The position numbers were made by a program, and so were the translations under genes. The notes beneath the pieces are model-generated. The model was not told the DNA's origin, searched no databases, and worked only from the letters and a program-made list of their open reading frames with translations. Positions 1-14,199 of a DNA stretch of 64,000 nt are shown here, piece by piece; position 1 is the first letter of the stretch, and each line of letters begins with the position of its first letter. The DNA is from Tabrizicola sp. (GTDB taxonomy: Bacteria > Pseudomonadota > Alphaproteobacteria > Rhodobacterales > Rhodobacteraceae): NCBI RefSeq assembly GCF_030373185.1, contig NZ_JAUCZH010000003.1, positions 1 through 64,000 of the forward strand, given 5' to 3'.

Positions 1-4
1 CGCA

Positions 5-208
5 ATGACCGTCACAAGACCCAGACGCTTGACGAGCGTCGTCACAGAGCCGATGCTGCTGCCGATCCAGACGCCCCCGGCGCCGGCGGAGCATGTCGTT
101 GCAACGGCACCAGAAGACCCACCAGAGCCTTTGCCCCTGGCAGAGCCGCCGGCGGAGAATTTGTCCGAAGTGCGGATGCGGCCACGGCGCGTTATCGTCG
201 TGAAGTGA
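5..208 (+). CDS. C-terminal fragment of a Pro/Glu-rich protein, probably truncated by the window edge
   Basis: The visible reading frame is 67 residues if read from the first ATG, but it is open back to the window edge, so this is probably the tail of a longer gene. It is rich in Pro, Ala and Glu and ends in a basic stretch (RMRPRRVIVVK). No domain is recognisable. The stop lies 3 nt before the ATG of the next GTPase gene, which suggests co-transcription with the GTPase cluster. The composition resembles the disordered linker of the downstream 790-aa GTPase. Function unknown. Confidence 0.45.
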   Translation: MTVTRPRRLTSVVTEPMLLPIQTPPAPAEHVVATAPEDPPEPLPLAEPPAENLSEVRMRPRRVIVVK

Positions 209-211
209 GAC

Positions 212-2584
212 ATGATTGAAGAAGACGGTGAACTGACGGTCGCAGAGCGGCTTGGTCGTCTTTTGGACCGAGGGCTTTTGCCTGCTGGTGGCCCGGCCGA
301 GGCTGCGGAACGGCTGATCGAACGCCTTGAACGACCGGCGCGCGTGGCTTTGCTGGGCTTGCCGGGCGCTGGGAAGTCTTCGGTTCTCAACCTGCTTGCC
401 GGTACCGTGGTCGTTCCCGAGACGCTTCGGCTGCCAACGATGGTCGTGCAGCATGGCTCAGAGGCCCGAATGCTTTGCACCCTTGCCGATGGCCGGGTGG
501 AAGATGTTCCAGGCACGAACCTGGAACAGGCGCTGAGGTTGAACCCGGCACTTGTGACTGTCGAGATGGACCTGCCTTCCCTGAAGGTCATCAGCCTGCT
601 GGAGGTCGCCGCCGGGCCGATGGAGACCGAACAGCGCCGGGCCGCAGTCTGGGCCAGCAAGCGCGCCGATATCCTGATCTGGTGTACGACTTCATTTCTA
701 CCCAAAGAGCAGATGGTGTGGGAAAGCATGCCCGACTCGGTGAAGGACAACGGGTTCCTGTTCCTGACCAAAGTAGACTTGCTTGGCAGCCCCGAAGCTG
801 CGCAGGGCATGCTTGAGCGTGTGGAACAGCGCGCAGGCGAAGATTTCCGGCAAGTCCTGTCGATTTCCACAAAACAGGCACGGGCGGCGATGCCTCCGGG
901 CGGACCGATCGACCGGAATCTTTTCCGGGACAGTGGTGCCGCAGCCGTGATCACGACAATCAAGGCCCGGGTGCAAATGGCGCAGCGCGCTGACACCGAC
1001 ATGGCGGAACTCTTGCTGGCGCGGCACGTCGAAGCTGGCGGCATCGTTGCACGCCGCTTTGCAGATCCGGACCCGGCGGCCGCCACAGAGGCGGTTGCCG
1101 GACAGGCAGATGCGTCGACCGAGCCAGCGACACCCCCAGCCAGCACCGAGCCCGAAAAGGTGCCAGAGCCGGAGCAGGTATTCAGGCTGGAACTTGTGGC
1201 CAAACCCGAACCAGCGCCGGAACCAGCCCTCGTCGAAGATCCCGCCCCGGAGCCGGATCAGGTTGCAGGCCTGCTTTCAGCGCTCAGGCTGGAGCCTGAG
1301 TTGGAAGCTGCCGTCGAGCCGCAACAAGAGAGTGCAGCAGAGGGTGTTGCAGAGATTGCCGAAGGGCCGGACTCGCAGCCGGAGCCGGAAATTGAGCCGG
1401 AACCGGAAGATCAGGACGATCTTCCGGCTGACGCCGCTTCCAATGAACCAATGGACGCAGAACCACTGTCAGCGGCGGGGGCAAAACGCTTCTCGGACCG
1501 GATCAGGCAGGCCGCACCTGCCACCGACGCAGGCGCCGCGCCGCCCGTGCCATTGCGAACAACCTGGAAATCACGGAACGAGCCTGCAGAAACGTCCGCC
1601 GCTGCGCCGAAGCCAACTCTGACGCCACGGAAAGACATTCCGAAGACCCCTCCCCCGCCGCGTGGCAAAGTGCTCGAGACCCCCGCCCGACCCGCCGATA
1701 CATCGACCGACGCCGGGCCTGACGATGCGGCGATTGCCGCAATGCTTGCAGCGGCTGCCGCCCCCCCGAGAGAACCGCGCACCCCCCGCGACCGGCAATC
1801 GCAGTCGGCGTCCACCGCGCCAGTTGGGCCAGCAGCAAGTGACCGCGCCCAGCGGACCCGGCTGTTTGGCGCCCGCAAACCTGCCGCCCCGGAACTTGAA
1901 CCCCCGGAACTTGCGCCCGCAGAAATTGCTCCCGCGGCCGAAGCGCCTGTCGAACCGGTTCAGCCTCAGGATGAGGCCGTTGACCTGGCCGAGGCACCCG
2001 CACCGGCCGCGACCCCGGTCGAACAGCTGACCGATCTGCCCGAAGACCAGCCGACCGCCCCATCAGCGCCGCCTGCGGTGCCGGAAACCCGTCGGTTTGT
2101 GGCTGCGCGAGCCGCCGGCGCTGAAGACATGCCTTCACCCCGGGTTGCGGTGTTGCGCGAACGCAGGGCTGACGCTCCCACTGCCGAACGCCGCGAACGA
2201 CCGCGGATCGCCGCCCGCGTCGTTGCCGCCGCACCGGCACCTGAGGCTGGCCCCAGGGCCGTTCCTGCCTCCGAACATGGAATTCTGAATCAGGCTGTTG
2301 CGCTGATCATCTCGCGGGCTGCCGATCTTGAACGTCTGGTTGATCCCACTGAAAAACCACCGGTCGACCTGATCCTTGACCACGGTCGGGAAACCACCGA
2401 GCAAGTGATCGAGGTTCTGTCGCAGGCATCTTCCGCCGAGTTGCGCCGAATCAACCATGACCTGAGTGAGGTTCAAGACCTGATCATGCTGATGCAGCTG
2501 GAGAAGGGACATGCCCCAGCCGACGACGCAATGACGCTTATCTTGCAGATTCGTCGCGATCTGGAAACATTGCGTGCGGCGTGA
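212..2584 (+). CDS. GTPase-domain protein with very long Pro/Glu/Ala-rich linker
   Basis: A 790-aa protein. The N-terminal ~270 residues look like a dynamin/Era-type GTPase: Walker A GLPGAGKS at residues 49-56 and a G4-like TKVD at 186-189. The G3 region is degenerate: where DxxG is expected the sequence reads EVAAGP. Residues ~285-690 are low complexity (Pro, Glu, Ala and later Arg), probably disordered. The last ~90 residues (from about GILNQAVALI) are predicted helical and may mediate oligomerisation. It is the first complete gene of a co-directional cluster with two further GTPases. No close named family is recognised. A scaffold or membrane-remodelling role is inference only. Confidence 0.7.
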   Translation: MIEEDGELTVAERLGRLLDRGLLPAGGPAEAAERLIERLERPARVALLGLPGAGKSSVLNLLAGTVVVPETLRLPTMVVQHGSEARMLCTLADGRVEDVPGTNLEQALRLNPALVTVEMDLPSLKVISLLEVAAGPMETEQRRAAVWASKRADILIWCTTSFLPKEQMVWESMPDSVKDNGFLFLTKVDLLGSPEAAQGMLERVEQRAGEDFRQVLSISTKQARAAMPPGGPIDRNLFRDSGAAAVITTIKARVQMAQRADTDMAELLLARHVEAGGIVARRFADPDPAAATEAVAGQADASTEPATPPASTEPEKVPEPEQVFRLELVAKPEPAPEPALVEDPAPEPDQVAGLLSALRLEPELEAAVEPQQESAAEGVAEIAEGPDSQPEPEIEPEPEDQDDLPADAASNEPMDAEPLSAAGAKRFSDRIRQAAPATDAGAAPPVPLRTTWKSRNEPAETSAAAPKPTLTPRKDIPKTPPPPRGKVLETPARPADTSTDAGPDDAAIAAMLAAAAAPPREPRTPRDRQSQSASTAPVGPAASDRAQRTRLFGARKPAAPELEPPELAPAEIAPAAEAPVEPVQPQDEAVDLAEAPAPAATPVEQLTDLPEDQPTAPSAPPAVPETRRFVAARAAGAEDMPSPRVAVLRERRADAPTAERRERPRIAARVVAAAPAPEAGPRAVPASEHGILNQAVALIISRAADLERLVDPTEKPPVDLILDHGRETTEQVIEVLSQASSAELRRINHDLSEVQDLIMLMQLEKGHAPADDAMTLILQIRRDLETLRAA

Positions 2585-2640
2585 CACTATTACTCATCGA
2601 AGAATCGACAAAAACCTGCCCAATTCGGACCACTTTCCCA

Positions 2641-2690
2641 ACTTATGTCATGATCACGGGGACTTGCGCCGTTTTATGTGCGACATAAGT
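2641..2690. promoter_or_regulatory. Inverted repeats upstream of the dynamin-like gene (candidate operator)
   Basis: In the 134-nt gap before the dynamin-like gene, ACTTATGTC (2641-2649) is repeated in inverted orientation as GACATAAGT (2682-2690). The right arm is also half of a compact palindrome, TTATGT-GCG-ACATAA (2674-2688), ending about 30 nt before the ATG. This looks like a dimeric regulator site. I do not recognise the regulator; it does not match FNR, LexA or Fur consensus sequences. Confidence 0.4.
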
Positions 2691-2718
2691 GGTTTGGGGC
2701 GGAGGTTGTGAGGTTATC

Positions 2719-4785
2719 ATGGGACTTGGCGCCATAGTTCAGAGCGATGAACAGGCAGTCGACGCTGCCGCTGGACCAGCACCTGAAGTTGCGCTTGAAC
2801 GCAGCTTCCCGGGCCTTGGGCGTATTGCCGAAGCAACCCAGCAGTTCGAGGACGTTCTGCGCGACTTCGTGACGATGGCAGACCCCGACACGTCGAAGAA
2901 GGTCACGCGGATCCTGCAACAGGTGCGCGACGTTGAACCTTCGGTAACGGTCATCGGCCAGATCAAGGCTGGCAAGACCTCGCTGATCAACGCGATGATC
3001 GGCGCGCCGAACCTGCTGCCGACGGACGTGAATCCCTGGACGTCGGTCGTCACGTCGCTGCACATCAACACCCCCAGCCCGGAACTGAACGTCAAGGCGA
3101 AATTCAAGTTCTTTGACGGCGCAGAATGGGACAAGCTGGTCTCGAACGGTGGCCGGATCGGCCAGCTTGCGGCGCGTGCGGGTGCCGATGACGAACTGGA
3201 AAAGCTGCGACTGCAAGTCGTGGCCATGCGTGAAAAGGCGCAGGCCCGGCTTGGCCGCAAGTTCGAGATGCTGCTTGGCACCGAACACCGCTATGGCGCG
3301 GTCGATGATGCGCTTTTGCGCCGCTATGTCTGCGTTGGCGACGAAGAGGCAGGTTCCGCCGATCAGGGCCGCTTTACCGACATCACCAAATCGGCCGATC
3401 TTTACATCGAACGTGATGACATTCCGGTCATGCTTTGCGTGCGCGACACGCCCGGCGTGAACGACACCTTCATGATGCGCGAACAGATCACGATCAACGC
3501 CGTGCGCGACAGCCGGTCCTGTATCGTCGTGCTGTCTGCCCATCAGGCGCTGACGACGATGGACATGGCGCTGATCCGCCTGATCGCGCACCGCCAATCG
3601 CGTGAGATCATCATTTTCGTGAACCGGATCGACGAACTGCCTGACCCGGGGACACAAGTGCCGGAAATTCACCGGTCCATCCTTGAGACGCTGGAAAAGA
3701 ACAACGCGCCACAGGATATCGACATCATCTACGGCTCGGCGCACTGGGCCAATGCCGTGCTGCTGGGTCAGATCGACGAGATGACCGACGACAGCACGGA
3801 ATCGGCGATCAACTGGACCCGCGCTGCCTTCGCCGACAAGATGGACAGTTGGTCAGCCGAACAGCTTGTCTGGCATGCCTCGGGCGTGCCAGCGCTTCTG
3901 GATGCGCTTGGGCAGCGGATGTATGAAGGCCCGGTGCAAGAGGCGTTGCAAAAGTCGGCCCGTCAGGCGCTGAACCTTGCGCAAAGCCTTGATGTGGTGG
4001 ATCAGGTCCGCATCCTTGAATCCGACGGCCAGCTTGACCGGACGATGACGCCCGGGCAGCTTGACTCCGAACTGCGCCAGATCGAGGTCGCGGCGGTGGA
4101 AAAGCTGACCCACCTTACCGACAATGCCTGCAAGGACTTCACCAACCGGATCGACCAGTCCTACGAACGCTTTCTGGAGCGCGCAACGAATTCGCTGATC
4201 GAACATCTTCAGGCCAATGGCGAAGATGCGACCTGGCATTACAGCCCGCTTGGGCTGCGGATGCTGCTGTCTTCCAGCTATCAGGTGGTGCTGAAGAAGA
4301 TGCACGTCATCGCCGCCGACGTGAACAATGAGACCGCTGTCAGGATTGCCGATCTTTACGGCAAGACCTTCTCGATCACGGTCGAAGGCTTCAAGATTGA
4401 AACCCCCGTCGTTTCCTACATCCCGCCGCCGATCAACCTTGGCCAGACCATCGCGCTGGACCTTCAGGTTGGCTGGTGGAAGGGCTGGTGGCAGCGCCGG
4501 CGGGGCTACAAGGCCTTTGCGCAGGATTTCTACAAGTTGATCCGCGCCGAGACTGACCCGATCATCAATGATCTCAAGACAATCCAGATCGGCCTGTTCC
4601 GCGAAAGGACACAGAACACCCTGCGCGACTTCCTGCAAGAACAGCGGGAACTTCTCATGAGCGCGCTTGCAAGCTCGGAAATCTCGATGGAAGAGATGAA
4701 AGAGTTGTTCGGCGTCAACGCCTGGGAAGACAGACAGGAATGTCTTGCGTCGATCATGGACGAACTTGGCGCCTATGCCGAGTAA
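2719..4785 (+). CDS. Bacterial dynamin-like GTPase
   Basis: A 688-aa protein with all main motifs of a large dynamin-family GTPase: G1 GQIKAGKTS at residues 80-88, a G2-type Thr in PWTSVV, G3 DTPG at 243-246 and G4 NRID at 302-305, followed by a long alpha-helical region typical of dynamin middle/stalk domains. Around residues 585-595 lies an unusual aromatic/basic patch (GWWKGWWQRRR) that could insert into or bind a membrane. The frame is open from 2689, but the ATG at 2719 is preferred: it has GTGAGG 5 nt upstream and the extra N-terminal residues look untranslated. The stop is 30 nt before the next GTPase gene. Membrane fission, fusion or stabilisation is the family role; the role here is unknown. 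Confidence 0.82.
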   Translation: MGLGAIVQSDEQAVDAAAGPAPEVALERSFPGLGRIAEATQQFEDVLRDFVTMADPDTSKKVTRILQQVRDVEPSVTVIGQIKAGKTSLINAMIGAPNLLPTDVNPWTSVVTSLHINTPSPELNVKAKFKFFDGAEWDKLVSNGGRIGQLAARAGADDELEKLRLQVVAMREKAQARLGRKFEMLLGTEHRYGAVDDALLRRYVCVGDEEAGSADQGRFTDITKSADLYIERDDIPVMLCVRDTPGVNDTFMMREQITINAVRDSRSCIVVLSAHQALTTMDMALIRLIAHRQSREIIIFVNRIDELPDPGTQVPEIHRSILETLEKNNAPQDIDIIYGSAHWANAVLLGQIDEMTDDSTESAINWTRAAFADKMDSWSAEQLVWHASGVPALLDALGQRMYEGPVQEALQKSARQALNLAQSLDVVDQVRILESDGQLDRTMTPGQLDSELRQIEVAAVEKLTHLTDNACKDFTNRIDQSYERFLERATNSLIEHLQANGEDATWHYSPLGLRMLLSSSYQVVLKKMHVIAADVNNETAVRIADLYGKTFSITVEGFKIETPVVSYIPPPINLGQTIALDLQVGWWKGWWQRRRGYKAFAQDFYKLIRAETDPIINDLKTIQIGLFRERTQNTLRDFLQEQRELLMSALASSEISMEEMKELFGVNAWEDRQECLASIMDELGAYAE

Positions 4786-4815
4786 GCCCGTGCTGCGCAA
4801 AAGAGGACCAGACCA

Positions 4816-5769
4816 ATGCCTTTGACCCGCAAACCCCGCATCGCCATCATGGGCGAGTTCAGCTCGGGAAAAAGCACACTCTGCAATGTGTTGATGGGTG
4901 CGCGCCCCCTGCTGGAAAAGGTGACTGCCACCCAGTTGCCGCCCGTCTGGCTGTCCTACGGGCCGGATGATGCCTACACGATGGGGCTGGACGGCGTGGC
5001 CTATGATCTGGACGTCGCCGATCTGGAATCCGTTTCGCTGGAAACGACGGAACATGTCCGCATCTTCATGCAAAGCGACATCCTGCGCTACTGCGACCTG
5101 ATCGACATGCCCGGCATTTCCGACCCCAGCATGTCACCCGAAGTGTGGGAGCGGATGGCCCACCTTGCCGATGGCGTGTTGTGGTGTACCCATGCAACGC
5201 AAGCCTGGCGTCAGTCGGAATCCGGGGTCTGGTCGACATTCCCTGCCGAACTGCGCCGCAACAGCCTGCTTCTGGTCACCCGGTTCGACAAGATCGTCAA
5301 CGAAAGCGACCGCGCCAAGGTGCTGAAGCGGGTGGTCGCCGAAACCAGTGACCTGTTCGCCGAGATCTTGCCGGTCTCGCTGCTCCGGGCGATGAACGCC
5401 GGGGATGACGAACAGAAATGGGCCGACAGCGGCGCGCAGGCCCTCACGTCTGCTCTGTTTGACATCGTCCACCGCGTGATTGACGAAGGCCACCCCGAGC
5501 CGGGGGCGGAATTGTCTGCGCCCATTCAGCCGGAAGCCGTTGAAAATCCGGAAATTGGCCAAAGCCTGATCGCCAGAGCCTTTGAACGGTTGACGACCAT
5601 TCGCCGCACGCCCGTGGTAAAGGTCATGCCGCGTCGGGTTGCTGCGGGTGAGCGTCTGCTGCGCACCGAGCGGCCAACGGGGGAAACCGGTCCTGCCGTG
5701 GTGTCCTTCTCGGATGGGCCCGTGGAAGAAGATGCCCTGCTTGCCCTGACCCGGGCGCCGGGCCGCTAA
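4816..5769 (+). CDS. Third GTPase of the cluster, dynamin/Era-like G domain
   Basis: A 317-aa protein, almost entirely a G domain: G1 GEFSSGKST at residues 13-21, G3 DMPG at 97-100 and G4-like TRFD at 155-158. It lacks the long helical stalk of its neighbour, so it may act as a partner or regulator. The C-terminal ~80 residues are basic and Pro-rich (RRTPVVKVMPRRV) and recall the tails of the other cluster proteins. GAGGACC lies close upstream of the ATG. It follows the dynamin-like gene by 30 nt in the same direction. Exact family and substrate are unknown; nucleotide binding is well supported by the motifs. Confidence 0.75.
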   Translation: MPLTRKPRIAIMGEFSSGKSTLCNVLMGARPLLEKVTATQLPPVWLSYGPDDAYTMGLDGVAYDLDVADLESVSLETTEHVRIFMQSDILRYCDLIDMPGISDPSMSPEVWERMAHLADGVLWCTHATQAWRQSESGVWSTFPAELRRNSLLLVTRFDKIVNESDRAKVLKRVVAETSDLFAEILPVSLLRAMNAGDDEQKWADSGAQALTSALFDIVHRVIDEGHPEPGAELSAPIQPEAVENPEIGQSLIARAFERLTTIRRTPVVKVMPRRVAAGERLLRTERPTGETGPAVVSFSDGPVEEDALLALTRAPGR

Positions 5770-5799
5770 CGGGCGCCAGAGCCGGGAAGGATTCATGGA

Positions 5800-6171
5800 T
5801 TGGGCGTGAACGAAACACTCGGTGCTGTGATCACGGCCCATCCGCAGGCGCGGGTGGTGGCCTTCGCCGACCTGTCTGCCAGCATGATACTGGCGAGCCA
5901 AGGCAGGGATGATATCACGCAGGAACATCTTGACCGGCTGTGCCTTCAGGCGCGCGCAAGTTTTGACGATCCGCTCTTTTCGCTTTCGGTCGAAGCCTTC
6001 GGCGAACCGCACGGCGCTGTTGTGATGGGTGCGGATGGCATCCGGGTTTTCCTGCGTTCGGAAAGCGAACCCGCCGACGCATTGTGCTGCATTTGCGATC
6101 ATGGCATTGACCTTGCGGCGTTTGTGGCCAAGATCCGCGTAACACTTGAGAGCATCACCTCCGGTGGGTGA
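5800..6171 (+). CDS. Small Roadblock/LC7-like protein
   Basis: A 123-aa protein read from a TTG; GGGAAGG at 5784-5790 gives a suitable spacing. GTG at 5806 is the alternative, and an ATG at 5795 is in another frame and stops at once. The pattern resembles the Roadblock/LC7 fold used by MglB-type small-GTPase regulators: a strand pair (ARVVAFADLSASMILAS), a helix, then GAVVMGADGIRVFL and ADALCCICDHGIDL, with a final helix. Because it sits directly behind three GTPases, a role as GTPase-activating or scaffold partner is an attractive inference. The fold call rests on pattern only. Confidence 0.5.
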   Translation: MGVNETLGAVITAHPQARVVAFADLSASMILASQGRDDITQEHLDRLCLQARASFDDPLFSLSVEAFGEPHGAVVMGADGIRVFLRSESEPADALCCICDHGIDLAAFVAKIRVTLESITSGG

Positions 6172-6204
6172 CGGGGCAGGTTCAAGTCAGGATCGGGCAA
6201 GCCG

Positions 6205-7155
6205 TTGAACAGAGGCACTCTTCCTATCATATCCCGTTTGCAGTCCTTGCAGGCACCCGCGCATGTGGCGCCGGGCGGGGCGCGTATCATTGCTGCGGCT
6301 TCGGATCCGAACCCGCTTGCCGCGCTGCTGCGCGAGGTGAACGAAACAATGCTGGGCCGCGCCCTCACCTTTGAGTCGCGCATCGGCACCAATCTTACGC
6401 TGGAGGTTTCCGGGCGCCGGGTCTTGCGGTTGACGGCGGCCAGCGGGCTTGCCGGGGCTGAAAGCTGTCTGTCCGAACCAGCGCTGGAAGACGCGCACAA
6501 GGATGACCTTATCAAGTTGCTGCAAGCACTTGCGGTCCCAAATCAGGAATTGCGGGTCACCACGACCCCGATCGACCGCGAGCGGGAAGGGGTCAGCGTC
6601 GGCTTGCCCGTTGCGTTGCTGGCTGATCTGCTGCTGGTCGATCTGAACCCGCTTGCGGCGACCGAGTTTACTGCGCTCGAGGCCATGCCGACAACCGCCC
6701 CCTCTCCAAAGGTCGCACCCGAGGCAAGGCTTTTCGCAGTGCCAGATCCGCCTCCTGTCGCTGTCCGCCCCCCGGCAACCGCGCCGGTAGCGCCCGAGGC
6801 AGCCACCTACAAGACCGCAAGTGCCGATTTTCTGGGTCGCTTTGCGCGGGGAACGGGGCCTGTGCTGATGGCGTGGCTGATCACCGGCGGCGATGAGGAT
6901 GGCACCACCGAAGGCCCGGATGAGATGGTTTCGCATCTGCAAGGCTTTCTGGACGATGAGGCTGAGGCTGTTTCGCATCAGCTTGACCAGATTTCCACCG
7001 CTCCCGATGGGCCGATCTGCATCGTGCTGGGCGCGACCCTTGTCGAAGGTCACAGCGTGCTTTGCGCCCGGTCGGGTGAAGGTGTTCTGCTGGGCGTCAT
7101 CGAAGGGGATGGAACCCAGACCCTGATGCAGGCGTGGTCCGCCGCCTTTGCCTGA
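6205..7155 (+). CDS. Unknown 316-aa protein closing the GTPase cluster
   Basis: Read from a TTG, 33 nt after the Roadblock-like gene, same strand. It has an N-terminal region with alternating strands and helices (residues ~1-165), a Pro/Ala-rich linker (~170-205) and a C-terminal domain (~210-316) ending in a beta-rich stretch (ICIVLGATLVEGHSVL). No signal peptide or membrane segment is visible. I recognise no family. Its position and linker composition tie it to the GTPase cluster. It ends just before the convergent ABC ATPase gene. Confidence 0.6.
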   Translation: MNRGTLPIISRLQSLQAPAHVAPGGARIIAAASDPNPLAALLREVNETMLGRALTFESRIGTNLTLEVSGRRVLRLTAASGLAGAESCLSEPALEDAHKDDLIKLLQALAVPNQELRVTTTPIDREREGVSVGLPVALLADLLLVDLNPLAATEFTALEAMPTTAPSPKVAPEARLFAVPDPPPVAVRPPATAPVAPEAATYKTASADFLGRFARGTGPVLMAWLITGGDEDGTTEGPDEMVSHLQGFLDDEAEAVSHQLDQISTAPDGPICIVLGATLVEGHSVLCARSGEGVLLGVIEGDGTQTLMQAWSAAFA

Positions 7156-7158
7156 CGG

Positions 7159-8157
7159 TCAGCGCCGCCTCTGACCCTCGGGGTCGAACAGGAATATCCG
7201 ATCACGCGACAGCGACAGATGAACCGTTTCGGAAACGGCGTAGTCATGTTCGCCAAACAGCCGCACGGTCAAAAGCCCGTGCTGCGGATGGCGGGCATAG
7301 ACCAGCGTTTCCCCACCCAGCTTTTCAATATGGCTGACCTCGGCGGCAAATTCACCGCTCTCGCGTGAGATCATCAGGTGTTCGGGCCGGATACCCACCT
7401 GCCCCGGCGGAAAGCCAAGTGCGGCGGCATCAAGAAAGTTCATCTGCGGGCTGCCGATGAACCCGGCGACGAAGGTGTTCGCCGGGTCGTTGTAAAGTTC
7501 CATCGGAGAGCCAACCTGTTCCACCTTGCCCGCGCGCAAGACGACGATCCGGTCGGCCAGCGTCATCGCCTCGACCTGATCATGGGTCACATAGATCATC
7601 GTGGCCTTCAGGTCGCGGTGCAGGCGCGCAATTTCGATCCGCGTGGCCACGCGCAGGGCGGCGTCAAGGTTCGACAGCGGTTCGTCGAACAAGAACAGCT
7701 TCGGGGTCCGCACGATGGCCCGGCCAATGGCAACACGCTGGCGTTGGCCGCCGGAAAGTTCCGCCGGACGTCGGTCCAGCAATGGCCCCAGCTCCAGCAT
7801 CGCCGCAGCCTTGTCGGTCGCCGCCATGATTTCAGCCTTGGGCTTGCCCGCCTGTTTCAGCGCCAACCCCATGTTGTCACGCACGGTCAGATGCGGATAA
7901 AGCGCATAAGACTGGAACACCATGGCCAGTTCGCGTTTGGCCGGGGCCACGTCATTCATCCGCCGCCCATCCAGCAGGATGTCACCATCGGTCGCATCCT
8001 CCAGCCCCGCGATGATACGCAAAAGCGTGGATTTCCCACAGCCTGACGGGCCGACAAAGACGCAGAATTCGCCGTCCTTCACCGACAGGTCAACGCCCTT
8101 GATCACCTCGGTCGCGCCGAAGTTCTTGGTGACGCCTTTCAGTTCCAGCGCGCCCAT
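7159..8157 (-). CDS. Sugar ABC transporter ATP-binding protein (UgpC/MsmK/MalK family)
   Basis: A 332-aa ABC ATPase, the family's usual size with a C-terminal TOBE region. It shows Walker A GPSGCGKST, Q-loop VFQSYALYP, signature LSGGQRQR, Walker B LFLFDEPLSNLDA and switch YVTHD. It energises import through the two permeases encoded upstream in the same operon (9184-10940). It is the last gene of the minus-strand murQ / binding protein / permease / permease / oxidoreductase / ATPase unit, 7 nt after the oxidoreductase gene. ATPases of this clade are often shared between sugar importers, so specificity comes from the binding protein. Family assignment is secure; the substrate is inferred from neighbours as an amino sugar. 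Confidence 0.93.
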   Translation of the reverse strand: MGALELKGVTKNFGATEVIKGVDLSVKDGEFCVFVGPSGCGKSTLLRIIAGLEDATDGDILLDGRRMNDVAPAKRELAMVFQSYALYPHLTVRDNMGLALKQAGKPKAEIMAATDKAAAMLELGPLLDRRPAELSGGQRQRVAIGRAIVRTPKLFLFDEPLSNLDAALRVATRIEIARLHRDLKATMIYVTHDQVEAMTLADRIVVLRAGKVEQVGSPMELYNDPANTFVAGFIGSPQMNFLDAAALGFPPGQVGIRPEHLMISRESGEFAAEVSHIEKLGGETLVYARHPQHGLLTVRLFGEHDYAVSETVHLSLSRDRIFLFDPEGQRRR

Positions 8158-8164
8158 ACGGCCC

Positions 8165-9187
8165 TCACAATTTCACAGGATGGCCGGACCGGACGCTTTC
8201 GTCCGCGGCAAGACAGATGGCAAGCGACTGCACGGCGTCTTCCATATGCCGCGTCAGATCGAGATCTTCCGTAATCGCGCGGGCCACGAAGGCCTGTTCG
8301 CGTTCGCACAATTCCTGATGGCCGGGTTCATCCGCCATGCTCAGATCCTGATCCGGCTGGCCGACGCGATGCACGCGGATGGTCTGGGTCATCGTGTGGG
8401 TGGAATGGTCATCCGACCTGGCGCTTTCCGGCATCTTGATCGACACCGCCCCGTTCGGGCTGACCACATCCTTCACGAAGAACGCGGTATCCGACATCAT
8501 CGGACCCCAGCCAGCCTCGTACCAGCCGACCGAGCCGTCCTCGAACAGCACCTGGAAATGGCCGTAGTTGTACATGTCCGGCGCGATTTCATTGGACAGT
8601 CGCAGCCCCATGCCGCGCACCTCGACCGGCTTGGCATCGGTGATCTGGCACATGACATCGACGTAATGCACCCCACAATCCACCAGCGGACTGGTGGTCT
8701 GCATCAGGGTCTTGTGAACCTCCCATGTCGGGCCGGATGACTGCTGGTTCAGGTTCAGCCGGAAGACATAGGGACCGCCCAAGGCCCGCGCCTCGGCGAT
8801 CATGCGCATCCATGACGGGTGATGCCGCAGGATATAGCCGACCACGACCTTTCTGCCGTTGGCCTTGGCGCAATCGACCACGCGACGGGCATCGGCCACG
8901 GTTGTCGCCAGCGGCTTTTCGACAAAGACATGCGCCCCCGCCTCCATCGCCGCCACGGCATAATCGGCATGGCTGTCGGAATAGGTGGACACGTTCACAA
9001 GGTCCGGCTTCAACCGGGTCAGAGCCGCATGGAACACTGGCTCGACGACATATCCGTCCAGCGCCGGGTCCAGCTTCGGCGTCGAGCGGTTGACCAGCCC
9101 GACCAGATCGAAGGCCGGGTTGCGGTGGTAGGCCAGCGCATGGCTGCGGCCCATGGTGCCAAGACCTGCGACCATCACACGGATCAT
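8165..9187 (-). CDS. Gfo/Idh/MocA-family NAD(P)-dependent oxidoreductase
   Basis: A 340-aa protein with an N-terminal Rossmann motif (VAGLGTMGRSHALAY) and the family hallmark EKP in HVFVEKPLATT, followed by the usual C-terminal substrate domain. These enzymes oxidise or reduce sugars and related polyols. The start overlaps the stop of the preceding permease gene by 4 nt (ATGA), so it is translationally coupled to the importer. In an amino-sugar operon it may act on an imported sugar or glycoside, but the substrate cannot be read from sequence alone. Confidence 0.88.
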   Translation of the reverse strand: MIRVMVAGLGTMGRSHALAYHRNPAFDLVGLVNRSTPKLDPALDGYVVEPVFHAALTRLKPDLVNVSTYSDSHADYAVAAMEAGAHVFVEKPLATTVADARRVVDCAKANGRKVVVGYILRHHPSWMRMIAEARALGGPYVFRLNLNQQSSGPTWEVHKTLMQTTSPLVDCGVHYVDVMCQITDAKPVEVRGMGLRLSNEIAPDMYNYGHFQVLFEDGSVGWYEAGWGPMMSDTAFFVKDVVSPNGAVSIKMPESARSDDHSTHTMTQTIRVHRVGQPDQDLSMADEPGHQELCEREQAFVARAITEDLDLTRHMEDAVQSLAICLAADESVRSGHPVKL

Positions 9188-10020
9188 TTCACGGCTCCTG
9201 CGGTGATCCCGCGGATCAACTGCCGCGAGAAGATGAGGTAAAGGACCAGGACCGGAATGATCGCCAGCGACAGGGCCGCCAGAACGGCATTCCAGTTGGT
9301 CACGAACTGCCCGATGAACACCTGCGCACCCAGTGTCACGGTCTTGGTGTGTTCAGCCGGGGCAAGGATCAGCGGAAACCAAAGGTCATTCCAGATCGGG
9401 ATCATGGTGAAGACCGCAACCGTTGCCATCGCCGGGCGCACAAGCGGCAGAACAAGGCTGAAGAAGATACGGTATTCCGACAGCCCGTCGATCCGGCCCG
9501 CGTTCTTCAGATCATGCGACACGGATTTCATGAACTCGGACAGGATGAACACCGCCAAGGGCAACCCCTGCGCCGTGTAGACCAGAATAAGCGCGGTCAG
9601 CGTGTTCACCAGACCGGTGGCCACCATGATCTCCAGAATGGCAACGGTGCCAAGCCGGATCGGAATCATGATCCCCAGCGCCAGATAAAGGCCCATCAGC
9701 GTATTGCCCTTGAACCGGTATTCCGACAGCGCAAAGGCTGCCATCGCGCCAAACAGCAGCACAAAGAACAGGCTGACAACGGTGACAATCAGACTGTTCT
9801 GAAAATACAGGAAGAAGTCCCCTTGTTTCAGCACCGTCTGGTAGCCCACCAGATCAAAATTCTCCGGCCACGGCAGCGCCAGCGGGTCGGCAAAGATCGC
9901 CTTGCGGGTCTTGAAGCTGTTGATGACGATCACGAAGACCGGGAACAGCGCGATCAGCGTATAGGTCAGCAGCACCGCATGGGCTGCAATGGTTCTCCCG
10001 GTGGACATGCGCGCGCTCAT
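9184..10020 (-). CDS. Sugar ABC transporter permease, MalG type
   Basis: A 278-aa inner-membrane permease with about six hydrophobic segments, starting with HAVLLTYTLIALFPVFVIVI. The cytoplasmic EAA loop that docks the ATPase is seen as NAGRIDGLSEYRIFF in the second half. It pairs with the MalF-type permease encoded immediately upstream: the partner's stop and this ATG share one base (TGATG). Length and topology are typical of the carbohydrate uptake CUT1 group. Confidence 0.92.
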   Translation of the reverse strand: MSARMSTGRTIAAHAVLLTYTLIALFPVFVIVINSFKTRKAIFADPLALPWPENFDLVGYQTVLKQGDFFLYFQNSLIVTVVSLFFVLLFGAMAAFALSEYRFKGNTLMGLYLALGIMIPIRLGTVAILEIMVATGLVNTLTALILVYTAQGLPLAVFILSEFMKSVSHDLKNAGRIDGLSEYRIFFSLVLPLVRPAMATVAVFTMIPIWNDLWFPLILAPAEHTKTVTLGAQVFIGQFVTNWNAVLAALSLAIIPVLVLYLIFSRQLIRGITAGAVK

Positions 10021-10940
10021 CAGAACTGATACCTCCGCAGCCGGGTCTGGATACCGAACAGATAGACACAGACGCCAATCAGGATGATCCCGAACATCGA
10101 CCCGGCAATGGCCGACCCCATGTAGGGATCGCCCAGTTGCAGCTGAAAGCCAAAGAAGGTGCGATAGAGGAAGGTGCCAAGGATATCGGTGCTGTAATCC
10201 GGCCCGGCCAACGCACCTTGCGCCACATAGATCAGGTCGAACGCATTGAAATTGCCAACGAATGTCAGGATCGAGATGATCCCGATGGATGGCAGGATCA
10301 AGGGCAGCTTGATCTTCCAGAACTGCGAGGCACCAGTGATTCCGTCCATTTCGGCGGCTTCCAGAACCTCATCGGGGATCGACAGGAGGGCCGCATAGAT
10401 CAGCATCATCGGGATGCCGACAAACTGCCAGACCGATACCAGCGCCAGCGTGGTCAGCGCGTATTCCTCGCGGCCCAGCCACGGCGCGAACAGGGATTTG
10501 AGGCCAACCGCGTCCAGCATCCCCGGCGCGATGCCCCAGATCGGCGACAGGATCAGCTTCCAGACAAAGCCGACGATCACGAAACTCAGGATCGTGGGGA
10601 TGAAGATCGCGGTCCGGTAAAAGGCCGCCATTCGCAAGCGAGGTGTGGAAAGGATCGCCGCCAGCGCAATGCCGATCGGGTTTTGCACCAGCATATGCAC
10701 GACGAAGAACCAGGCGTTGTTGCCCAGCGCGTTCCAGAACGCGTCAGACCAAAGGGCATTGCCAAAGAGCGTGGCAAAGTTCTGCAAGCCGACGAAGACC
10801 CGCTCCCCTGCCGCGCCCTTGTTGAACAGCGATTGGAGCAGCGTCCCGAACAGCGGGATGATCATCAGCGCGGTGTAAACCAGCACCGCCGGGGCCAGAA
10901 ACACGCCGATATGCCAACGCACGGGCTTGCGCGAAGCCAT
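10020..10940 (-). CDS. Sugar ABC transporter permease, MalF type
   Basis: A 306-aa permease read from MASRKPVRWHIG. The frame extends a further 38 residues upstream, but that part is translated palindromic repeat DNA and is unlikely to be protein. It has six hydrophobic segments and the EAA loop EAAEMDGITGASQFW. It forms the heterodimeric channel with the MalG-type protein. A strong intergenic hairpin (10988-11010) separates it from the upstream binding-protein gene and may lower its expression relative to the binding protein, as is common in such operons. Confidence 0.9.
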   Translation of the reverse strand: MASRKPVRWHIGVFLAPAVLVYTALMIIPLFGTLLQSLFNKGAAGERVFVGLQNFATLFGNALWSDAFWNALGNNAWFFVVHMLVQNPIGIALAAILSTPRLRMAAFYRTAIFIPTILSFVIVGFVWKLILSPIWGIAPGMLDAVGLKSLFAPWLGREEYALTTLALVSVWQFVGIPMMLIYAALLSIPDEVLEAAEMDGITGASQFWKIKLPLILPSIGIISILTFVGNFNAFDLIYVAQGALAGPDYSTDILGTFLYRTFFGFQLQLGDPYMGSAIAGSMFGIILIGVCVYLFGIQTRLRRYQF

Positions 10941-10970
10941 GGTCTTCCCCTTCCTGCCTGCTCTTTTCGG

Positions 10971-11010
10971 AAATACTCCGCGGGGGTCCGGGGGGCGCGA
11001 AGCCCCCCGG
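10971..11010. repeat. GC-rich palindromic intergenic repeat, copy 1
   Basis: Contains a 9-bp perfect stem, CCGGGGGGC (10988-10996) with GCCCCCCGG (11002-11010) and loop GCGAA, preceded by AAATACTCCGCGGGGGT. A closely similar element lies at 51531-51572. Here it sits between the binding-protein and permease genes. In the mRNA it would form a stable hairpin without a following U-run, so it more likely stabilises or attenuates the transcript than terminates it. Confidence 0.7.
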
Positions 11011-11025
11011 TTCCGTCGGTTCAGC

Positions 11026-12273
11026 TTACTGCTGCGGCGCGTACCAGCTGGCAAGACCAGCTTGCAGACGCTCGGCCGCAGCCTCGGGCGCTTCGGACCC
11101 GCGGATCACGTTGGCCGAGGCGTTCCAGGTCTCGTTTTCAAGGTTCGGGGTGCCACGCGACAGGATCTGGTAGGTGGACCGGATCGTCGATTCGCACTTG
11201 CCGCGCCACGACACGAACTCTTGCGCCAGCGGGTCTTCCATCGCCACCGGGGTGGAATTCAGGCTGAAGAAGCCTGGCAGGGCGTTGGCATACATCGTCG
11301 CAAACTCGGGCGAGCCGACCCAGTCAAGGAACACACGCGCCGCATCGGCATTGGGCGAAGCCGCGTTCAGGCCGATGGCAATGTCGGTGTGATCGCTGAT
11401 ATAGCAGGTGTCACCTGCTGCCGCGACCGGCGGCGGGAAGGCACCCATCTTGAACTCGGCCTGTGCGTTGAAGCCCGAGATTTCCCACGAACCTGCCGGA
11501 TAGATCGCGGCGCGGCCAAGGGTGAACAGGTTCTGGCTGTCGGGGTAGGTCTGCGCCTCGAAGCCGTCGCCCAGATAGTCCTTCCACTTTGCCAGTTCGG
11601 CAAATGGTGCGACCCATGCGTCATCGGTCAGCTTCTGTTCGCCCTTGATCAGCGCCAGACGGCCCTCCTCGCCCTTCCAGAAGTTCGGCCCGATGTTGTT
11701 ATACCCCATCGTAGCGGCTTCCCACTGGTCGTTCGTCCCCATCGCCATCGGGATATAGGTGCCATCGGCCTTGATCGCGTCCAGAGCGGCGTAGAATTCG
11801 TCGTTCGTCGTTGGAACCGACAGGCCCAGCGCCTCGAAAGCGTCAGCGTTGTAGATGAAGCCGTGGATCACCGAAGCCATCGGCACGCAGAAGGTGGCGC
11901 TGCCGTCATCGGTCTGCCACGCCGATTTCGCCACCGGCGAGAAGTTCGCCATGCTTGCCAGATCGGACAGGTCGGCCAGATGGCCCTGATTGTAGAGCTC
12001 AAGGCTGGCATCGAACGGGCGACAGGTGATCAGGTCGCCCGCTGACCCGGCCGAGAGCTTCGAGTTCAGCACCGCGTTGTATTCTGCCGGGGCGCTGGGG
12101 GCGAAGATCACCTTGATATCGGGATGCTGGGCCTGAAACGCCGGAATGATCGTGTCCTGCCAGATGGTCAGGTCGTCATTCCGCCAGCTTTCGATGGTCA
12201 GCGTGGTTTCGGCCAAGGCCGGACCGGCAAGCAGCGTGCTGGTCAGAAGGGCGTAGCGGATGGTTCTTGTCAT
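11026..12273 (-). CDS. Extracellular sugar-binding protein of the ABC importer
   Basis: A 415-aa periplasmic solute-binding protein (family 1, MalE-like). The start MTRTIRYALL gives a clear signal peptide with the likely cut after ALA (PALAETTLTIESW); an in-frame ATG 45 nt upstream would bury the signal peptide and is rejected. The mature part begins with the typical strand TLTIESWRNDD and contains the DAIKADGTYIPMAM-type hinge region seen in this family. It would capture the sugar and hand it to the permease pair encoded downstream. The substrate is inferred as an amino sugar or a small glycoside containing one, from linkage to murQ and nag genes. Confidence 0.9.
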   Translation of the reverse strand: MTRTIRYALLTSTLLAGPALAETTLTIESWRNDDLTIWQDTIIPAFQAQHPDIKVIFAPSAPAEYNAVLNSKLSAGSAGDLITCRPFDASLELYNQGHLADLSDLASMANFSPVAKSAWQTDDGSATFCVPMASVIHGFIYNADAFEALGLSVPTTNDEFYAALDAIKADGTYIPMAMGTNDQWEAATMGYNNIGPNFWKGEEGRLALIKGEQKLTDDAWVAPFAELAKWKDYLGDGFEAQTYPDSQNLFTLGRAAIYPAGSWEISGFNAQAEFKMGAFPPPVAAAGDTCYISDHTDIAIGLNAASPNADAARVFLDWVGSPEFATMYANALPGFFSLNSTPVAMEDPLAQEFVSWRGKCESTIRSTYQILSRGTPNLENETWNASANVIRGSEAPEAAAERLQAGLASWYAPQQ

Positions 12274-12314
12274 TGCAGTCTCCCTGTTGGGGCAGTTCGC
12301 CCGGTTGGTTCTTG

Positions 12315-13199
12315 TCAAATCTTCATGGCCTCGGCCAGATGCCCACCTGCACGGGCCAAGTTTTCAGATGCATCCTTCGGTGTTGCGCCGCGCGCCACCA
12401 GAACAGCAGGTTTCACCGCGCCATCGGTGATGTCCAGAGCCATGCGGGCGGCGCTGGTTTCCACCCCCGCGATCCGCGCCACGATCCGGGCGGCGCGGTC
12501 GCGCAGCTTGGCGTTGTCGGCAATTACATTCACCATATTGCCATCATGCACATGGCCAAGCCTCACGCCAACCAGTACCGAAATCAGGTTCAGCGCCACC
12601 TTCTGCGCCGTTGCCGCCCCCAGCCGCGTGGACCCGGCGACGATTTCGGCTCCGGTATCCAGCAAGACAGGCACATCGGCCATTTGCAGCAGGGCGGAAC
12701 GCGGCACATTCGCAATCCCGATCACCGTCGCCCCCGCCCGCGCGGCATGTTCGGCCACGACCAGGGTGTAAGGGGTGGACCCCGAGGCGGAAATGCAGAT
12801 CACCGCATCCCCCGCCCCAAGACCTGCGCTGGCAAGATCGGCAAGGGCAAGCGCCGGGTCATCTTCGACCCCGCCGGTCATCTGCAAAAGCGCCTCCGCT
12901 CCACCGGCAAACAACATCGGCGTGCGCGCTGTCGGAATCCCGAAAGTCCCCAGAAGCTCCAGACAGTCGGCCAGCGCCATCAGGCCGGACGACCCCGCCC
13001 CGGCATAGGCCAGCTTGCCGCCACCCCGCAGCGCGGCAACGGCCAGTTCCGCCGCAGATTCAAGCGCCGGAAGGATTGGCCGGACTGCCGCCAGTGCCGC
13101 TTCCTGCGCGGTCAATGCGCGCGACAGCACGTCAATAGCCGGGGCCAGATGCAACCCGGCAGACAATGGATGCAGCGCCTCTGTGGGACGTTCGGTCAT
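12315..13199 (-). CDS. murQ: N-acetylmuramic acid 6-phosphate etherase
   Basis: A 294-aa SIS-domain protein that cleaves the D-lactyl ether of MurNAc-6-P to give GlcNAc-6-P. Supporting features are GAGSSGLMALADC (phosphosugar loop), a glutamate in GGVEDDPALAL, ICISASGSTPY, and the family block VAGSTRLGAATAQK. It is first in the minus-strand operon, diverging from nagK across a 151-bp control region. The start is taken at MTERP; an in-frame upstream ATG at 13277 lies inside the operator region and is not preferred. The product feeds the NagA and NagB-II steps encoded opposite. The etherase call is good; close SIS relatives are the only alternative. Confidence 0.87.
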   Translation of the reverse strand: MTERPTEALHPLSAGLHLAPAIDVLSRALTAQEAALAAVRPILPALESAAELAVAALRGGGKLAYAGAGSSGLMALADCLELLGTFGIPTARTPMLFAGGAEALLQMTGGVEDDPALALADLASAGLGAGDAVICISASGSTPYTLVVAEHAARAGATVIGIANVPRSALLQMADVPVLLDTGAEIVAGSTRLGAATAQKVALNLISVLVGVRLGHVHDGNMVNVIADNAKLRDRAARIVARIAGVETSAARMALDITDGAVKPAVLVARGATPKDASENLARAGGHLAEAMKI

Positions 13200-13350
13200 T
13201 TGATTCCCCCTGACATCAGACAATGCCAAAACAATACCACTTGTAAAGAAGGAAGTATCACATGGCACTATTTTCACTTAAATGCCGCTCCGAGAGATAC
13301 CACTTTCCAAATGGTCTTGTTTTGGTATTATTTCAAACAGGAGGATTCGC
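13200..13350. promoter_or_regulatory. Divergent murQ/nagK control region with repeated ATACCACTT motifs
   Basis: This 151-bp gap holds ATACCACTT twice in direct orientation (13234-13242 and 13297-13305). An inverted TGGTATT lies at about 13323-13329 (TTTTGGTATTATTT), mirroring AATACCA at 13233-13239. ACCA and TGGT half-sites also flank TTTCCAA within 13300-13316. Such repeated half-sites suit a dimeric GntR/HutC-family repressor, and one is encoded at 14196. AACAGGAGG just before 13351 is the nagK ribosome site. The motif is seen; the regulator pairing is inferred. Confidence 0.55.
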
Positions 13351-14199
13351 ATGGCGCTTTTCTTGGGCATCGACGGCGGGGGAAGCGGCTGCCGCGCGGC
13401 GGTGGCCGATGCGTCGGGTCGTATCCTTGGCGAAGGCCATTCAGGCCCGGCCAATATCGCGAGCGATCTGTCGACTGCCCGCTTGAACATCCTTGCCGCC
13501 ACCACCTCGGCCCTGACCAAGGCTCTTGGTGCCGATCAGGTGGCACACGCCTTGCCAACCCTGTCTGCCGGGCTTGGCCTGGCTGGGGCAAATGCTGCCG
13601 GGGCGGCAGAGGGTTTGCGCGCGGGCCTGCCCTTCGCCCGGATCCGGGTGGAAACCGACGCCATCGCCGCCGTGAAAGGCGCGCTGCGGGGCCGGGACGG
13701 GATTGTCGCGGCCATTGGCACCGGGTCGGTCTATGCCCGACAACTGGGCGGCGTGATCCGCCAGATCGGGGGCTGGGGGCTGGTTCTGGGCGATGACGGC
13801 AGCGGCGCGCGCCTGGGGCGCAGCCTCTTGGCCGAAGCGCTTGGCGCGGTTGACGGGTTCCGCCCGATGACCCCCTTGCTGCAACAGGTGCTGGATGACC
13901 ATGGCGGAACCGAAGGCGTGATCGCCTTTTCCCTGTCGGCGCGACCAGCGGATTTTGCCAGACTTGCCCCCCGCATCCTTGCCGCCGATGATCCGGCCGC
14001 AGCGGGTCTTCTGGCGCAGGCGACCGCCGATGTCGCCGCATCCATCGCGGTGCTGCAAACCGACCCACCCCTGCCGGTCACCTGTATCGGCGGCCTTGGC
14101 GCGGCCTATGCCCGGCGCCTTTCCGACCGTTGGCCAGTTGCCCCGGCGCTTGGTTCGGCGCTGGACGGCGCGCTTTTGCTGGCAAGAGAGGCGGCATGA
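13351..14199 (+). CDS. nagK: N-acetylglucosamine (or N-acetylmuramic acid) kinase, BadF/BadG ATPase family
   Basis: A 282-aa sugar kinase. The ASKHA phosphate-1 loop is LGIDGGGSGCRAAVAD at the N-terminus and the phosphate-2 motif is AAIGTGSVYA. ATG at 13351 is chosen because AGGAGG lies 6-7 nt upstream; the frame is open 69 nt further back through the operator. It would phosphorylate the imported amino sugar at C6. Because murQ is divergently encoded and no anmK is visible, the kinase might accept MurNAc as well as GlcNAc, like clostridial MurK. That specificity is inference. Confidence 0.85.
   Translation: MALFLGIDGGGSGCRAAVADASGRILGEGHSGPANIASDLSTARLNILAATTSALTKALGADQVAHALPTLSAGLGLAGANAAGAAEGLRAGLPFARIRVETDAIAAVKGALRGRDGIVAAIGTGSVYARQLGGVIRQIGGWGLVLGDDGSGARLGRSLLAEALGAVDGFRPMTPLLQQVLDDHGGTEGVIAFSLSARPADFARLAPRILAADDPAAAGLLAQATADVAASIAVLQTDPPLPVTCIGGLGAAYARRLSDRWPVAPALGSALDGALLLAREAA

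Follow-up and report, generated by a model that had tools for sequence, protein, structure and literature searches.

The 64,000-base window analysed here, which opens contig C3 of a Tabrizicola sp. genome (G000), carries at positions 212–7155 a cluster of dynamin-type and roadblock-like genes that we read, with slightly better than even confidence, as the 3' portion of an operon of eight genes, K-F-P-A-B-C-D-E, whose products would form a single dynamin machine regulated by phosphorylation. A preliminary description of the sequence had reported five open reading frames (ORFs), among them three GTPases with intact P-loops and a small Roadblock/LC7-like protein, as a possible five-gene unit. That observation was confirmed overall and its first interpretation partly supported: each of the five ORFs is found on the forward strand and they co-occur in relatives, but the unit has eight genes, since in relatives A is preceded by genes for a kinase, an FHA protein and a PP2C. 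Gene content, motifs and co-occurrence were taken from sequence and synteny and the fold of D from prediction; from these we infer every interaction and membrane step described below.

The extent of the operon became apparent from relatives with enough flanking sequence, in which the window genes were consecutive on one strand with additional genes 5' of them. These relatives came from a sample of titled loci, the best 80 of 265, among which the nearest were Rhodobacter and Tabrizicola strains and metagenome-assembled genomes. In Yoonia vestfoldensis (L074), the genes 5' of A encode a Hanks-type Ser/Thr kinase (K), an FHA protein (F) and a PP2C phosphatase (P). Loci of 21 kb or more numbered 49, and all of these contained P, B and C, while A, D and E were each found in 48, K in 37 and F in 33; the count for F is too low, as overlapping ORFs were dropped, and a later reading of 70 loci used domain bounds. 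The window cluster itself is truncated because contig C3 starts inside the PP2C gene. Comparison of the genome with the PP2C of T. aquatica (L036) gave a sole match at C3:5–205, with 55% identity to residues 278–359 (E = 3.8e-4), and the 3' end of P occupies window positions 5–209 (+), with its stop codon at 207–209 and the remainder beyond the contig start. At the end of contig C5 of the same genome lies a 583-amino-acid kinase (C5:260236–261987; Pkinase, 5.5e-27). Another gene begins 3' of it; its first 178 codons, which reach the contig edge, align with F of three relatives (L041, L043 and L045). The simplest reading of these two contig ends would be a single K-F-P-A-B-C-D-E operon split where roughly 1.2 kb is missing from the assembly, a size estimated from L036.

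To score genomes of the order we used a profile built from C, termed A3, which was positive in 72 of 196 genomes and in 33 of 87 genera. The best locus was analysed for 70 of these 72 genomes, leaving out our own and G703, whose BCBC cluster was analysed separately. The genes proved syntenic beyond what chance would give, in favour of the preliminary description, with 48 of the 70 loci, from 23 genera, showing exactly the order KFPABCDE on one strand, although these are relatives rather than independent samples and one genus supplies 13 of the 48. Titled loci and surveyed genomes also overlap, since G191/L045, G713/L056 and G716/L036 are the same strains and not independent. Median ORF junctions in the 48 loci were −4 bases for P-A, −4 for B-C and −1 for D-E, taking the first possible start codon, so that the overlaps are upper bounds. 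Close variants of this order were FPABCDE (3 loci), PABCDE (1, on a short contig), KFPABCD (1), KSSSFPABCDE (1) and KFPBC (1, on a 15-kb contig), where S denotes additional genes. Nine further loci, all of one genus, had the order B-C-D-E-B-A-K-F-P with zero to three extra S genes, one to three being present in five of the nine. In wider draws, the profile was positive in 2 of 385 genomes from the class, both of them Rhodobacteraceae, and in 9 of 398 from the phylum, of which eight belong to that family and the other carries a B-C-like pair.

The linkage of K-F-P-A to B-C-D-E survives rearrangement. On a Leisingera plasmid the K-S-S-F-P-A genes lie on the strand opposite B-C-D-E, and the one Ruegeria plasmid analysed carries B-C-D-hypothetical-B-A-K-F-P together with two genes for substrate-binding domains. 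As a separate observation, a conserved protein of 134–163 amino acids ends 3 bases 5' of the first dynamin in the genus with the B-C-D-E-B-A-K-F-P order (L120:4974–5465, L203:3634–4050, L206:3713–4117 and L202:13410–13832 (−)).

The GTPase content of the operon differs from what had been described. A Pfam scan of the five ORFs placed Dynamin_N above cut-off for B (window 2719–4785, +; 4.6e-11), a dynamin-like protein of 688 amino acids counted from its ATG, a GTG start at 2689 being likewise open, and for C (4816–5769, +; 1.4e-8), a compact protein of 317 amino acids with a G-domain and a disordered tail. A (212–2584, +; 790 amino acids) gave sub-threshold P-loop matches only. P-loops (G1) are indeed present in all three, reading GLPGAGKSS in A, GQIKAGKTS in B and GEFSSGKST in C, but A has no G3, so three GTPases was an overstatement: its G4 (TKVD) is present and the G3 position reads LEVAAG (SLLEVAAGP). 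In aligned columns, DxxG is missing from A in 54 of 55 standard copies, window included. A separate tally of P-loops in the 54 standard copies other than the window, made as the aligned-column count missed over-extended ORFs, gave 41 with a P-loop and no DxPG, 12 with no P-loop and 1 with a chance-like DNAG; for G3 itself the aligned-column count is the one used. By contrast with the standard copies, A of the B-C-D-E-B-A arrangement retains P-loop and DxPG in 9 of 9 copies. The A3 profile detects window A at E = 1.6e-22, and the WCT region is retained in A. Judged by these matches, A is a paralogue of C that is degenerate in standard clusters, a pseudo-GTPase made up of a G-domain, a long disordered linker and a conserved C-terminal segment, LMQxEK. 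The linker of about 400 residues noted earlier holds for the window copy but is not general, the median length of A across 54 standard clusters being 440.5 amino acids (range 308–837, longest ORF).

B and C, on the other hand, keep their motifs. B has G1, G3 (DTPG) and G4 (NRID), with DTPG and NRxD in 83 of 83 aligned copies, and a Trp-rich loop, WWKGWW at residues 586–591 of the window protein, whose motif is found in 69 of 82 copies. This loop lies within some 340 residues C-terminal to the G-domain, a region that may form a helical neck and trunk with a membrane tip. Among 74 copies of C, 67 keep the G1 sequence GEFS[AS]GKST and at least 62, counting the listed types, have DxPG. The median length of C, from longest ORFs, is 306.5 amino acids in the 54 standard clusters, 576 in the nine B-C-D-E-B-A clusters and 442 in nine BC/BCBC copies. 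Among solved structures, B best matches 5owv_A (1.3e-7; Cj-DLP1, the longer chain with 732 residues), followed by Nostoc BDLP (2j68, 1.6e-6), and the A3 profile of C best matches 5owv_C (1.5e-14; Cj-DLP2, the chain with 614 residues). Because of these two matches, B-C looks like a heterotypic dynamin pair of the Cj-DLP1/2 type. Within the variable tail of C, a PRRV motif (window 5629–5640) is invariant or nearly so in 15 aligned copies. The PP2C tails in the window (5–206) and in L036 were also seen to end in RP(R/K)RVIVxK, which resembles PRRV, and a shared docking motif at these two ends is possible.

D (window 5800–6171, +; 123 amino acids, TTG start) is predicted to adopt a roadblock/LC7 fold, an outcome that favours the earlier assignment. 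Neither D nor E (6205–7155, +; 316 amino acids, TTG start) matched any family in the Pfam scan, and phmmer and profile searches of D against solved structures returned chance-level matches only. Because sequence profile searches fail, the roadblock assignment of D rests on the predicted fold. D was detected in 66 of 196 genomes, all 66 of them C-positive, and in none of the 124 C-negative genomes (E ≤ 1e-4, with up to 22 of the best first-look candidates scored per genome). It was not detected in six C-positive genomes, namely G641 and five whose clusters are BC or BCBC. E is a two-part protein of unassigned family, whose C-terminal domain (about residues 206–316) is roadblock/profilin-like at a weak level only; with this weak fold match and no hhalign link to D, E is a weak candidate for a second roadblock. 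A different family from D, termed A4 and also roadblock-like, was observed directly 5' of the first dynamin in five of seven multi-pair clusters (L221:14763–15119 (−), L130:7068–7427, L134:14651–15067 (−), L214:10342–10716 (−) and L215:5733–6119), the other two being L124 and L126, with L143 outside the seven. It was not seen 5' of the single B-C pairs inspected. Robl_LC7 matched one of the five A4 members in Pfam, at E = 0.08, and A4 is kept as a lead only.

The upstream kinase and phosphatase keep their catalytic motifs. Of 60 K copies, 54 have HRDISPDN and 59 have DFG, and the PP2C motifs DGMGGH, SDG and QDN are conserved across 51 copies of P, the catalytic part of our own falling outside the assembly. 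F contains an FHA domain preceded, in a variable stretch, by R-x-KTR-x-x-GF (consensus of 51 copies), with KTR-x-x-GF present in 50 of 63. FHA ligands follow a pT-x-x-(I/L) rule, which the Thr of this segment, once phosphorylated, would fit. In the FHA switches GarA and OdhI, which have different partners, the FHA domain is likewise preceded by a conserved segment with a Thr. Two forms of K occur, the longer having an evident hydrophobic segment and the shorter mostly lacking one; a hydrophobic 19-mer (mean at least 1.5) follows the kinase domain in 28 of 60 copies, and the segment in our own kinase is borderline (1.79). The S proteins of one variant have weak LysM and solute-binding matches. 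Separately, on contig C1 of our genome (L151:4221–9624), a second kinase of the same family adjoins two genes that score with the LysM/solute-binding-like profile of S, an arrangement shared with the Ruegeria variant.

A Hanks kinase, an FHA protein and a PP2C are the same three protein classes as in the PpkA-Fha-PppA threonine-phosphorylation pathway of the type VI secretion system (T6SS), and K-F-P could in principle be the control module of such a system. We regard this as extremely improbable. The neighbours of K-F-P are GTPases, the annotated plasmid regions examined list no T6SS gene, and the sheath gene VipA (PF05591), the T6SS gene sought, is absent from our genome, which is 96% complete. 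The sheath gene is also missing from 46 of 72 C-positive genomes; it is carried by 26 of 72 against 29 of 124 others (p = 0.07). With the sheath gene absent and the association not significant over 196 genomes, the T6SS control module was rejected.

For the dynamin machine that we favour, the following sequence of events may be envisaged. An envelope or cytoplasmic signal would lead K to phosphorylate F, perhaps on the conserved Thr of KTR-x-x-GF, and maybe also A or C. Phosphorylated F would assemble a complex, with F and D building or breaking a complex that contains A and C. D, together with E, would serve as a platform binding A and/or C and so set the nucleotide cycle of the B/C pair, while B would bind through its Trp-rich tip and remodel or seal the inner membrane. 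A, its catalysis lost in standard clusters, would act as a regulatory partner, and P would reset the system. We suggest more tentatively, at somewhat less than even confidence, that, with Ser/Thr phosphorylation as a reversible control, a roadblock-fold protein and a pseudo-GTPase thereby regulate the dynamin pair. This would be a new bacterial signalling machine, one that switches membrane remodelling by a logic otherwise found in MglAB or Rag/Ragulator.

Several findings weigh against a single machine of this kind. First, the window genes do not overlap, the intergenic gaps for P-A, A-B, B-C, C-D and D-E being 2, 134, 30, 30 and 33 bases. Second, the adjacency of C5 and C3 is drawn across an assembly gap, and the F fragment of our genome has no Pfam match, because it ends where the FHA domain should begin, so that its identity comes from alignment to relatives; the three FPABCDE genomes are of the same genus as ours and have no kinase beside F. 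Third, D is invisible to Robl_LC7, both in the Pfam scan and in a search of our own genome with that family, and hhalign links D neither to E nor to A4. Fourth, C of standard clusters probably has no Cj-DLP2 trunk, judging by length (306.5 versus 614 amino acids). Fifth, a hydrophobic stretch after the kinase domain is missing from 32 of 60 K copies, and an envelope signal is therefore not universal. Lastly, three BCBC and three BC clusters among the 70 loci contain no K, F, P, A, D or E, and the dynamin pair can therefore exist without kinase/roadblock control.

These six clusters also bear on whether K-F-P-A-D-E is a signalling unit and B-C an independent dynamin pair, the two being neighbours by chance or genome economy. 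The conserved non-coding block 5' of B would suit such a division, as would genome G620, in which a K-F-P-A-D-E cluster and a K-F-(two periplasmic binding proteins)-A-D-E cluster occur with no B or C nearby (L224:9975–16708 and L223:2822–12204). A of the G620 K-F-P-A-D-E cluster retains a GLPGSGKSS P-loop and DMPG, and the cluster suggests that A forms a submodule with D and E. Set against this, A and C are paralogues, D was found in none of the 124 C-negative genomes, and the genes remain together in three arrangements. We consider two independent units improbable.

The operon described here recalls several known systems and differs from each. Streptomyces roadblock conservons also place a roadblock protein in a GTPase operon; they use Ras-like GTPases and histidine-kinase-like proteins. 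Roadblock-GTPase pairs are known (PMC6785124), and the preliminary description had drawn an analogy to the MglA/MglB polarity switch, which does not hold as stated: the operon has no Ras-like MglA, its GTPases are dynamin-type, and D is missed by the Pfam roadblock family. Paired dynamins in operons are likewise known (PMC6104087), and with Cj-DLP1/Cj-DLP2 of Campylobacter (PDB 5owv/5oxf; PMC6104087) the present pair shares adjacent genes and the closest matches among solved structures. Here, however, C is usually a G-domain and tail only, and a third, degenerate G-domain protein, a roadblock, a kinase, an FHA protein and a PP2C are added.

The earlier statement that the combination matches no named system agrees with the literature searched: by titles and abstract starts and with few subscription journals, we found no operon joining a roadblock to a bacterial dynamin and no treatment of Rhodobacteraceae dynamins, four papers that contain both terms being judged, like the rest, on title and abstract start. 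Heterotypic dynamin pairs, roadblock-GTPase pairs and kinase-FHA-PP2C modules in T6SS are thus known, and the control layer on a dynamin pair was not found described. What turns bacterial dynamins on and off has yet to be settled, most being known as gene pairs only, and the operon offers candidate regulators beside such a pair, namely a kinase, a phosphatase, a phospho-reader, a roadblock platform and a pseudo-GTPase. If the roadblock were shown to regulate the dynamins, the system would be of a new kind and would add dynamins to the Ras/Rag-type GTPases with which roadblock proteins work; if A4 is a true roadblock, roadblock control of dynamins would be a general principle with more than one origin. 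The carriers are many environmental bacteria, including cultured strains, which makes the question of the dynamin switch directly testable.

One specific version of the favoured machine is an envelope-stress or anti-phage membrane defence, in which K-F-P would sense damage to the inner membrane and B/C would seal it; sealing of this kind has been proposed for B. subtilis DynA. The distribution of the machine is patchy, with 72 of 196 genomes positive, it also occurs on plasmids, and some variants have LysM/solute-binding-like partners, albeit by weak matches. Among PADLOC models, B resembles LeoA (4e-9) and C resembles LeoBC (5.9e-6), dynamins also named Eleos. This similarity is limited to part of the G-domain (B 50–97; C 8–129), however, and no PADLOC model reached 0.01 with any of the scanned F, P, A, D or E copies. 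Similarity to Leo proteins confined to the G-domain, and matches of K to many kinase models, as expected of any Hanks kinase, led us to reject membership in a known defence system. The LeoABC operon (PMC4159319) likewise has more than one dynamin-type GTPase, with weak profile matches to ours, but the matches are not full-length, and no roadblock or kinase module appears on the LeoABC side in the available part of that paper. Membrane repair or an anti-phage role would be the most likely specific job, because of the analogy with DynA and Cj-DLP1/2, for which membrane repair has been discussed (PMC6104087); the damage-sensing defence in the form given above we rate as possible and on the whole unlikely.

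Formation or maintenance of intracytoplasmic photosynthetic membranes would be another job for a membrane-remodelling machine. Our own genome has reaction-centre genes, and these genes (PF00124) occur in 42 of 72 C-positive genomes compared to 40 of 124 others (odds ratio 2.9, p = 5e-4, a test that ignores relatedness). The 30 of 72 C-positive genomes without PF00124 nevertheless rule out photosynthetic membranes as the sole role, and we hold this explanation to be highly improbable.

Outside the coding regions, a non-coding block of about 50 bases between A and B (window 2617–2668, strand unassigned) is kept in close relatives. It could be aligned in 14 close loci, window included, and was not kept in 10 more distant loci aligned; its 24-base core is single-copy in our genome with up to three mismatches allowed. 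From this conservation, the block is a possible internal promoter or operator of B-C-D-E. Promoter and terminator scans yielded no more than shuffled sequences. Long open antisense frames face A in the window (1–1203, −) and in L036 (7340–9601, −) and are probably a by-product of GC-rich, repetitive codons. In the 3' neighbourhood of the operon (window 7159–14199), a sugar ABC transporter is found with an N-acetylmuramic acid 6-phosphate etherase (12315–13277, −) and an N-acetylglucosamine-kinase-like gene (13282–14199, +), the match of the latter being below cut-off, and the region may be an amino-sugar or wall-recycling locus. Finally, in a Photobacterium plasmid three genes annotated as dynamins lie within a block of conjugation genes (L144:5189–11962).

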